A stretch of DNA of 64,000 bases from Natranaerobius thermophilus JW/NM-WN-LF (lineage in GTDB: Bacteria; Bacillota; Natranaerobiia; Natranaerobiales; Natranaerobiaceae). The position numbers were made by a program, and so were the translations under genes. Shown in pieces: positions 33,877 to 51,940 of this stretch. The notes beneath the pieces are model-generated. The model was not told the origin of the DNA. It saw only the letters and a program-made list of their open reading frames with translations, and searched no databases. The stretch covers positions 935,001-999,000 of the forward strand of contig NC_010718.1 in assembly GCF_000020005.1 (NCBI RefSeq), read 5' to 3'. Positions within the stretch are counted from its first letter, which is position 1. Every line of letters starts with the position of its first letter.

Positions 33877-34602
33877 ATGTCAACTGCATCTTATTTTATT
33901 AAAACAAATAGGTCATTTTCTTTGATCAGAAAATATGCGTGGTTTGTGACACTTTTGATCGGAGTTGGAGGTCAATTTTTACCACAACTTGGGTTACTAG
34001 TTCCATTCATAATGATTGCTTTAATTGTTATGAGTCTCTTTAAAGGAAAATATTGGTGTGGAAACTTTTGCCCTCATGGTAGTTTTTTTGACCAGTTAAT
34101 TTTACCAATCAGCAGAAATGTTAGAATACCAAACTTTTTAAAATCCAAGCTTGTTATCGCTGCTGTTTTTCTTTTATTTATTATTAATTTGTCGATTCGA
34201 TTTGTGATTATAATTCAACAAATGGGTACAGAACCTTTGACTCACAGATTAGGCTTTATGTTTGCAAACACTTATTTAATGGTGCTACTTGTTGGAGGTC
34301 TACTTGGTGTAGTGATCAATGCCAGAACCTGGTGTCAGTTTTGTCCTATGGGGACTATGGAATCAATTTTTTATAAATTAGGTAAAAAATTAGGTCTAAC
34401 CAAAAAATTTGATGAAAAAGTGACCATTGAACATCCTGATTTATGTCATTCCTGTGGTAAATGTTCCAGGGTATGTCCTATGCAGTTAGAACCGCATAAA
34501 AACTTTTCAGAAAATCATCAATTTGAAGATGAAAGATGTATTAGATGTTATACTTGTGTTAACAATTGTCCGGCTAAAATTTTGCAAATGAATGCATCGT
34601 AA
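33877..34602 (+). CDS. Membrane 4Fe-4S ferredoxin-type protein (NapH/YccM-like)
   Basis: Membrane electron-transfer protein, 241 residues. About four or five segments are present; two conserved loops carry CGNFCPHGS and CQFCPMGT. The C-terminal domain has two 4Fe-4S motifs, CHSCGKCSRVCP and CIRCYTCVNNCP. The ATG follows GAGGGAGGA. It lies 76 nt after the flavoprotein, so they may share electrons, for example quinol to flavin or the reverse; that link is inference. Confidence 0.87.
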   Translation: MSTASYFIKTNRSFSLIRKYAWFVTLLIGVGGQFLPQLGLLVPFIMIALIVMSLFKGKYWCGNFCPHGSFFDQLILPISRNVRIPNFLKSKLVIAAVFLLFIINLSIRFVIIIQQMGTEPLTHRLGFMFANTYLMVLLVGGLLGVVINARTWCQFCPMGTMESIFYKLGKKLGLTKKFDEKVTIEHPDLCHSCGKCSRVCPMQLEPHKNFSENHQFEDERCIRCYTCVNNCPAKILQMNAS

Positions 34603-34661: not shown

Positions 34662-34690
34662 TTGACTAATTTGCTAATGACTGGTATATA
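34662..34690 (+). promoter_or_regulatory. Promoter of the large structured RNA
   Basis: TTGACT and TATATA hexamers separated by exactly 17 bp, with predicted transcript start near 34697, just ahead of the first hairpin of the RNA. Confidence 0.75.
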
Positions 34691-34696
34691 TATAGT

Positions 34697-35352
34697 AGAA
34701 GAATAACAAAGGAACTAACCGGTTTTTGAAATTTTACCGGACTACGTCATGAGTGTGGCGCAGTATCCTAGTTGGTAACTCCAGCTCCGAAGGCGGGCCT
34801 AAAAATCCGCTAAAGGGCACATCGATGAATCCTCTTGTGTTGGCTTTCGGCGCCCAGCCGAGGGTCGATGCTGGGGGCAAGGTAGTCAGGGGAATCCGCA
34901 AAGGCATGCGGGTGTATCCTGGCTACCGTGGAGACCTGGGTACGTGGTTTTTCGTCCATTTAGGCAAGAAAATTCAACACTACGGCTCAGGGTGTAAACC
35001 TGCATGCGGCAGACTCTGTGTGCAGTGTAGCCTGCCTTGAGTGGTGGCGGGGAATGGGTTTATCCCTGAAACCGTTGCTGCAAAAGAGGCTAGGAGTTGG
35101 AAAGTGCCATTGGAGAAAATCCCTAGGCTGTTCTCTTATGGGAAGCAGTCCGGGACTTGAAGTGCAGGCTAAGTGGCGATCCGGCGCCAATCTTACTGGG
35201 AAAGGCATTAAAGGGAAACCGCCGAGATGGCGACACTCGGTTGCTTTTTCGGGAAAACCCGCCGGACCTGAAGCCGCAGCATTAGCCCGGACTGCTGCCA
35301 CACTCACCTTTGGAGTAACAAAGGCTTCCCGAAAGGGTTGCCTTTTTTTTAT
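34697..35352 (+). ncRNA. Large structured noncoding RNA, probably OLE class
   Basis: A GC-rich block of about 650 nt stands out from AT-rich surroundings and holds no convincing gene, though frames happen to be open. It begins with a CCGGT/ACCGG hairpin and contains many local stems, such as GGCTTTCGGCGCCCAGCC and CCGGCG, and ends in an intrinsic terminator. It has its own promoter. The length, extremophile-type Firmicute setting and complex fold fit OLE (ornate, large, extremophilic) RNA, which acts with membrane proteins. RNase P, tmRNA, SRP RNA and group I/II intron signatures were looked for and not seen. The class is inferred, not aligned; ROOL-type RNA is an alternative. Confidence 0.7.
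35321..35350 (+). terminator. Terminator of the large RNA
   Basis: AAGGC-TT-CCC, loop GAAA, GGG-TT-GCCTT, then eight T residues. Confidence 0.9.
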
Positions 35353-35468
35353 TATGGCTATAATATAAATTTTTATCAATAAATTTTAGAAATTTGGAGG
35401 AATAAGTCAAAAAATGTATAAAATAATAAATAGATATGATTATTAATTACTATTAATATAAAAAGGAG

Positions 35469-36257
35469 GTGGAGAAAATTTTAAATTCACGGATACGATC
35501 TTATATAAATTTAGTTGCTCTGGCCCTTGTATTGATAGTCAATTTTTTATCAAATTATATTCCATTCAATAATTTAACCCAGGAAGATATTACAGAAATT
35601 TATCCTGTATTAATTACTCCAGCGGGATATGTATTTTCTATATGGGGAATAATCTATCTATTGTTAATTGGGTTTATTATCTATCAAGCACTGCCTAGCT
35701 ACAGGGAGACACCAAAAGTTTCTGCGGTAGGTATTTTGTTTGCAGTTACAGCTTTATTAAACATTTTATGGTTATTTGCTTGGCATTATTTACAAATCGG
35801 TTTATCTATGGTTCTAATGATACTGTTATTGATTACTCTGATAGGAATTTATAAAAAAATTATTGGCAGAAAATCAAGCGAAACCTTTTTTGATTGGTTG
35901 TTTGTCAGATTACCATTTAGTATATATTTGGCTTGGATTTCTGTGGCAACCCTGGCAAACTTAAATATTTTGTTGAATGATTGGGGCATATTAGGAACAG
36001 AAGGTTTTGGAGCTATGGTCTTTACAATACTTATGATCATTATCGGTGCCGTACTGTCTTTATATGTTTTTTATCGTTTGGGGGATATAGTTTTCCCATT
36101 AGTATTTACTTGGGCTTTTATAGGAATTGGAGTTCGTCATGGAACTGAAATAGCAGTACTAACAATGTTTGCATGGTTGGCCTCGGCTGTTATTTTATTC
36201 CTATTAGGATGGATTGCAGCTCGCAACCGTATGGCTACTGATACAAATAATACATAA
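35469..36257 (+). CDS. TspO/MBR-related tryptophan-rich membrane protein
   Basis: Membrane protein of the long TspO/MBR-like family of Firmicutes, 262 residues with about seven hydrophobic segments. Family blocks include YPVLITPAGYVFSIWGIIY, LNILWLFAWHY, LPFSIYLAWISVATLAN and VFTWAFIGIGVRHG. TspO relatives bind tetrapyrroles or lipids, but the function of this branch is unknown. The GTG at 35469 overlaps the AAGGAGG site; in-frame ATT at 35478 has ideal spacing, so the true start is uncertain. It lies behind the large RNA, where OLE loci often carry the OapA membrane protein, but it is not OapA-like in sequence. Confidence 0.85.
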   Translation: MEKILNSRIRSYINLVALALVLIVNFLSNYIPFNNLTQEDITEIYPVLITPAGYVFSIWGIIYLLLIGFIIYQALPSYRETPKVSAVGILFAVTALLNILWLFAWHYLQIGLSMVLMILLLITLIGIYKKIIGRKSSETFFDWLFVRLPFSIYLAWISVATLANLNILLNDWGILGTEGFGAMVFTILMIIIGAVLSLYVFYRLGDIVFPLVFTWAFIGIGVRHGTEIAVLTMFAWLASAVILFLLGWIAARNRMATDTNNT

Positions 36258-46052: not shown

Positions 46053-46350
46053 AAAAAACTCCTCATCCCTAAGGGACGAGGAGTCAACTCGCGTTACCAC
46101 CCTGATTACCGGTTATCTATGGATATTTGGAAAATAATTGATATCCGCAGCTCAAGTAAATTACACACTTTACACCGGTCCTCTCTTGTGTTTGTTAACG
46201 GAAACAATCCGGGGTAACCTACTGAGAATTAATAATTCTCCTGTTCGGTTCCCAACTCCAGGGTGCGCTTCACTAGTATCCCAGTACCGGGCTCCCACCA
46301 ATCCCCGGCTCGCTATACTGAAGAATAACTAGCTACTCTCCCTATCATCG
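46053..46350 (-). ncRNA. T-box riboswitch, tRNA-Arg specific (CGC specifier)
   Basis: Complete T-box leader on the minus strand: stem I with AGTA (46334-46337) on its 5' side and GAAG-CGC-ACC on the 3' side; CGC at 46265-46267 sits one base after GAA, where specifiers lie, and reads Arg. The T-box sequence AGGGTGGTAACGCGAG is at 46088-46103, and terminator arms CTCCTCGTCCCT/AGGGATGAGGAG then TTTTTT lie at 46053-46083. Uncharged tRNA-Arg should allow argG-argH-nhaC transcription. Confidence 0.88.
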
Positions 46351-46384
46351 TTTTTGAAAACGTGTTTAATTTTGGTTAATAAAT

Positions 46385-51408: not shown

Positions 51409-51635
51409 AGTATCACCCTCCAGTTAAATGGATTTACAAACCCTAAGAAATTATGTACCAATCTCTTAAGGTTGATAAAATTTATAGAAATTATAACATT
51501 AAATCATATAAAATAAATAGTTGATTTAACTACCTCTCTGTGATAAAGTTTATAAAAGAATTGGAATTTTATATACATTAAATATAATCACATTCACATT
51601 CTTTAAAATAAATATTTAAAAATTAATATTAGCGA

Positions 51636-51801
51636 GTTAACAGGTGCCGGGTAACACCGGTTAAAAGGGAATCAGGTGAAAATCCTGAGCGGTCCCGCCA
51701 CTGTGACTGGTCTAAGGGATGGTCCGGATACCACTGGATAGCCAAGCTATCTGGGAAGGTGGATCATTCTATGCCAGGAGCCAGGAAACCTGCCTGTTAA
51801 C
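51636..51801 (+). ncRNA. Cobalamin riboswitch aptamer
   Basis: Closing stem GTTAACAGG (51636) with CCTGTTAAC (51793-51801). The conserved GCCACTGTG B12 box is at 51698-51706, with GGGAATCAGGTGAAAATCCTG before it and GCCAGGAGCCAGGAAACC toward the end. It senses adenosylcobalamin and represses the downstream cbi operon. Confidence 0.95.
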
Positions 51802-51940
51802 CCGTACTCACTGCCTTCGAGGTAAAGGTAAAGTACTTCTGAGCAGAGATGTGCCCAGGGCACATCCTCCGGTGATATATTTTTTGTTTATCAACTGGTA
51901 GCTAAGAAGTATCCGGCCTACTCGAAGGGCCGGATTTTTT
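51802..51940 (+). terminator. Riboswitch expression platform and terminator
   Basis: ATCCGGCC, a 9-nt loop, GGCCGGAT and TTTTTT at 51911-51940 form the terminator. Upstream, GATGTGCC/GGGCACATC pairs as another hairpin at 51849-51867. The remainder to 52096 is noncoding and carries repeat copy B. Confidence 0.85.

Follow-up and report, generated by a model that had tools for sequence, protein, structure and literature searches.

OLE is a large, membrane-associated bacterial RNA whose ribonucleoprotein at the membrane supports stress tolerance. The link between OLE and the protein OapA was first drawn from the adjacency of their genes, and the function of OLE is, to our knowledge, still unsolved. 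The ole and oapA genes co-localise in most hosts (PMC12054373), with oapA the commonest immediate downstream neighbour of ole (PMC12265935), and a genome that has one almost always has the other (PMC11332333). About 1% of the reads from non-coding RNA in sediment of a soda lake were OLE reads, not assigned to the organism considered here (PMC6704655). Lineages that keep both ole and oapA, but apart from each other, offer a natural test of whether the RNA acts in trans, of whether RNA and protein have to be made together, and of what regulates the RNA by itself.

OLE RNA and its flanks in Natranaerobius thermophilus

The window analysed here is a stretch of 64,000 nucleotides on the 3,165,557-base contig of the N. 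thermophilus genome (3,191,453 bases, three contigs). A preliminary description of its sequence had proposed a large structured RNA, probably OLE, with its own promoter and followed by a TspO-family gene. As regards the RNA this was borne out: the whole-window Rfam scan gave a full-length match to OLE (RF01071, 417.3 bits; gathering score, 50 bits; E 3.7e-119), and the minimum-free-energy fold of positions 34697-35350 had a z of -7.2 against 20 shuffles. OLE was the sole Rfam family at this position in the whole-Rfam scan, and ROOL had no covariance-model match in the window. The RNA is a genuine OLE, a member of a known family, and it is the only copy in the genome. It shares long runs of invariant columns with other OLE RNAs across species (alignment A2, 10 sequences), the core motifs thus being kept.

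The full-length model match and conserved core are shared with the OLE RNA of Halalkalibacterium halodurans and its relatives, as are the conserved internal-loop motif UUAAAGGGAAACC beside P13 and the presence of OapA, OapB and OapC genes in the genome. The window copy differs from that type in lying away from oapA, in having its own terminator and in being without the long P9 arm whose palindromic loop is the kissing loop of the published OLE dimer (PMC12286853, PMC12265935). Its P9 arm is 38 nt long, compared with about 75-80 nt, usually with the palindromic loop, in most OLE RNAs. A shortened P9 is also found in the variant 1 OLE RNAs (PMC11332333), from which the window copy is distinguished by the presence of P7, P8 and the P13 region and by the OapB and OapC candidates encoded in the genome. 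Within this remarkable RNA family the window copy is an ordinary representative; what is unusual is its gene arrangement.

Table 1. Features of the OLE locus, in coordinates of the window.
Feature	Position	Strand	Basis
Gene upstream, for a NapH-like 4Fe-4S membrane ferredoxin	33877..34602	+	Pfam Fer4_5; score for the NapH family under the NCBIfam cut-off
Promoter-like site of ole: TTGACT (34662-34667), 17 nt, TATATA (34685-34690), extended TG	34662..34690	+	Sequence; shuffle p ~0.13
OLE RNA, model 1-616; long P9 arm and its palindromic dimer loop absent	34739..35317	+	RF01071, alignment A2, arm length
Intrinsic terminator: AAAGGC TT CCC GAAA GGG TT GCCTTT, then T-run	35320..35350	+	Hairpin sequence
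TATAAT box 3' of the terminator, perhaps part of a separate promoter of the TspO gene	35359..35364	+	Sequence
Gene for a TspO/MBR family membrane protein, considered to adjoin by coincidence	35469..36257	+	Pfam PF03073, 29.8 bits; synteny not conserved

The claim of a promoter of its own fared less well. A promoter-like site does begin exactly at the coordinate from which the preliminary description starts, but when the stretch, which is AT-rich, was shuffled, 13% of the shuffles gave a match of equal quality, which is no better than chance, and for this reason an ole promoter here is regarded as no more than plausible. The terminator hairpin (-14 kcal/mol) was graded good; it was missed by the automatic scan, since this requires an unbroken stem. 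It was also observed that a 12-nt near-direct repeat flanks OLE (GAATAACAAAGG at 34701-34712 and GAGTAACAAAGG at 35313-35324), either by chance or as the trace of an insertion. A repeat of equal quality occurred in 1.3% of shuffles, and no weight was given to it because the place was picked after the repeat had been seen. Elsewhere in the window, a T-box leader (46069-46357, minus strand) and a cobalamin riboswitch (51625-51811, plus strand) scored above their Rfam cut-offs.

The distant oapA gene and the census of detached OLE genes

The gene immediately downstream of the window OLE is not oapA; such adjacency is usual for OLE and no strict requirement, as the literature itself speaks of 'most' hosts (PMC12054373). 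A profile built from 25 OapA proteins encoded beside OLE in relatives (profile A1) found a single intact oapA in the genome (C2:1771618-1772169), 801 kb from OLE, which ruled out loss of the gene. The encoded protein (229 bits, a 194-aa frame with no stops) keeps all 11 residues that are invariant across 25 other OapAs. Its operon reads folD-xseA-xseB-ispA-YuiD-like-oapA-dxs-tlyA-nadK, and a 98-bp gap separates oapA from the YuiD-like gene; apart from oapA and dxs (TIGR00204), the genes are named from a reading of the translations and from gene order. An Rfam scan of this locus found no OLE, and in both a relative of the same family (G001) and one of the same order (G002) OLE lies directly upstream of oapA, in the slot of the 98-bp gap. 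A candidate OapB gene lies between map and infA; the PDB match of its product is OLE-associated protein B (7k9b, E 3e-9), and the gene was recognized by this match and by position, as a search with a KOW profile returned L24- and NusG-type matches only. A candidate OapC gene lies between rpoC and rpsL, and its product matches YbxF in the PDB (4lck). Of the two possibilities that the preliminary description had raised, separation of OLE from oapA and recruitment of a different membrane partner, the former is what was found; as OLE is single-copy, the distant oapA has no OLE of its own, the situation that the preliminary description had named as telling against it.

In a sample of relatives, OLE was found in 76 of the 101 genomes, the same 76 having an OapA match. 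The two genes adjoin in 72 of these, and oapA lies elsewhere in three, namely the window genome (G000), G005 and G013. In the remaining one, the 1.6-Mb genome G015, an OLE of low score (170 bits; L036, G015:C15:391342-392328) immediately precedes a broken oapA and dxs, which looks like decay of the OLE-oapA system. Across a sample of the phylum, OLE was present in 284 and OapA in 289 of 398 genomes. A targeted follow-up of 40 genomes, mostly low-scoring and hence not a fair sample, added eight detached OLE genes: four in family f5 (G123, G154, G345, G385), three in f94 (G180, G205, G254) and one in f93 (G177).

The 11 detached OLE genes occupy at least four unrelated sites, and oapA is intact in each genome. 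Families f5 and f94 share one site, with pepF-like and mrp-like genes upstream and a uvrC-like gene downstream, whereas G000, G013 and G177 represent three further distinct sites. The gap upstream of oapA (31-98 bp in G000, G005, G013, G123 and G177) is too small for OLE, and in G254 oapA still precedes dxs. The window locus therefore resembles those of f5/f94, f13 and f93, all other Bacillota, in having OLE far from an intact oapA, and differs from them in site and neighbours. These loci indicate that co-localisation of ole and oapA is common and not required. No published description of a detached OLE locus was found in a literature search that was short on subscription papers.

Probable relocation, the decay alternative and the TspO neighbour

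In a tree of 79 OLE sequences the window copy joins those of G001 and G002 with a support of 0.94, and its identity is highest to G001 (70.6%) and next highest to G002 (67.1%), which shows vertical ancestry and hence relocation within the lineage. Acquisition from another lineage after loss of the native copy would fit the new genomic site, which has no conserved synteny in relatives, but is contradicted by this grouping with relatives of the same family and order; it was rejected on the tree and is considered extremely improbable. A mobile element was also rejected: phage records gave no match, and viral contigs contained no exact copy of a core OLE pattern. The alternative that OLE lost its function on parting from oapA and is now a decaying remnant draws on the low score of the window copy, among the lowest of full-length OLEs, and on its lack of the long P9 arm. 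Furthermore, in the unselected sample the detached OLEs, three in number, have the three lowest scores of 75 matches, the variant G015 being set aside; by simple counting the chance of this is 1 in 67,525, although low scores of detached OLEs may partly mirror the make-up of the Rfam seed. Against decay stand the intact core motifs and strong fold, the retention of OapA and of the OapB and OapC candidates, and the fact that all five f5 genomes retain the detached OLE at their shared site. Neither does loss of the P9 arm follow from detachment, since most of the other OLEs in which it is cut (G177, G201, G011, G184, G159, G003 and G301) are attached; as the arm measure misread several sequences, notably those of f5/f94 and G001, only short arms whose sequence was read are counted here. 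Decay of the copy is thus very unlikely, while some reduction of its function may have occurred, given the score and the P9 arm, with the core kept.

The TspO-family identity of the next gene was upheld (29.8 bits against a cut-off of 24 bits for PF03073, TspO_MBR). The listed GTG start overlaps its own Shine-Dalgarno sequence; judging from orthologues, translation may instead begin near 35478, perhaps at an ATT codon (35469-35480). That this lineage has taken on a TspO-type membrane protein as a new or extra partner of OLE might be suggested by the direct adjacency of the two genes on the same strand and by the membrane and stress associations that both have in general terms. The distribution of the gene speaks against it. 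Orthologues in G001 (63% identity) and G002 (56%) lie among unrelated genes, far from OLE, and an Rfam scan found no OLE at those two loci; G005 and G013, despite their detached OLEs, have no match to the protein, and none of the detached OLEs of f5/f94, f13 and f93 lies beside TspO. In a search of 84,980 genomes, none of the 80 closest TspO loci had more than one of five OLE motifs, compared with four or five in the 31 OLE loci used as a control; nine of these TspO loci were also scanned with Rfam, and OLE was found at none of them. In addition, a terminator stands between the two genes, no OLE-TspO link was found in the literature searched, and, because the old operon still holds an intact oapA, the TspO gene most likely adjoins OLE by chance and is no replacement partner. 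The recruitment raised in the preliminary description is accordingly rejected on distribution and synteny and seems hardly credible.

Relocation of the sole OLE gene, with OapA retained, is considered highly probable. Under this model OLE would have left its ancestral position directly before oapA, in the interval from ispA to dxs, and moved about 801 kb after the split from the nearest sequenced relative. It would now form its own short transcription unit ending at the intrinsic terminator, with the TspO gene no part of the OLE system. The RNA is likely to work in trans, and assembly with OapA, OapB and OapC into the known membrane ribonucleoprotein is the most likely course because all three proteins appear to be still encoded.

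Marks of detachment

A terminator of -12 kcal/mol or better was found near the OLE end in eight of the 11 detached genes but in only six of 54 attached ones (Fisher p 7e-5), five of the eight belonging to one family. Counted by site, terminators occur at three of the four detached sites; they are found in f1, f13 and f93 and, if the f5 part of the shared site is included, also in f5, while the detached OLEs of f94, unlike the window copy, have no clear terminator. A promoter was rejected as a mark of detachment, since promoter-like sites are at least as frequent in attached OLEs: around 60% of 53 attached OLEs (canonical loci L002-L031 and L094-L118) have a strong one just upstream, at a shuffle p of 0.05 or less, so that independent transcription of OLE may be common even within the operon. 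Taken over all sites, the pattern would be consistent with OLE having broken from oapA several times, becoming a self-contained RNA gene with its own terminator, possibly separate regulation and faster change of the RNA, a tentative reading whose chances we put slightly short of even.

A further OLE-like stretch, unannotated, was noted on a 504-kb conjugative plasmid of Pusillibacter faecalis (L219, NZ_AP023421.1:196851-204975), with 125 nt at 76% identity. It lies about 0.6 kb upstream of a gene with a CNNM domain and dxs, and the plasmid apparently carries the whole OLE-oapA-dxs block.
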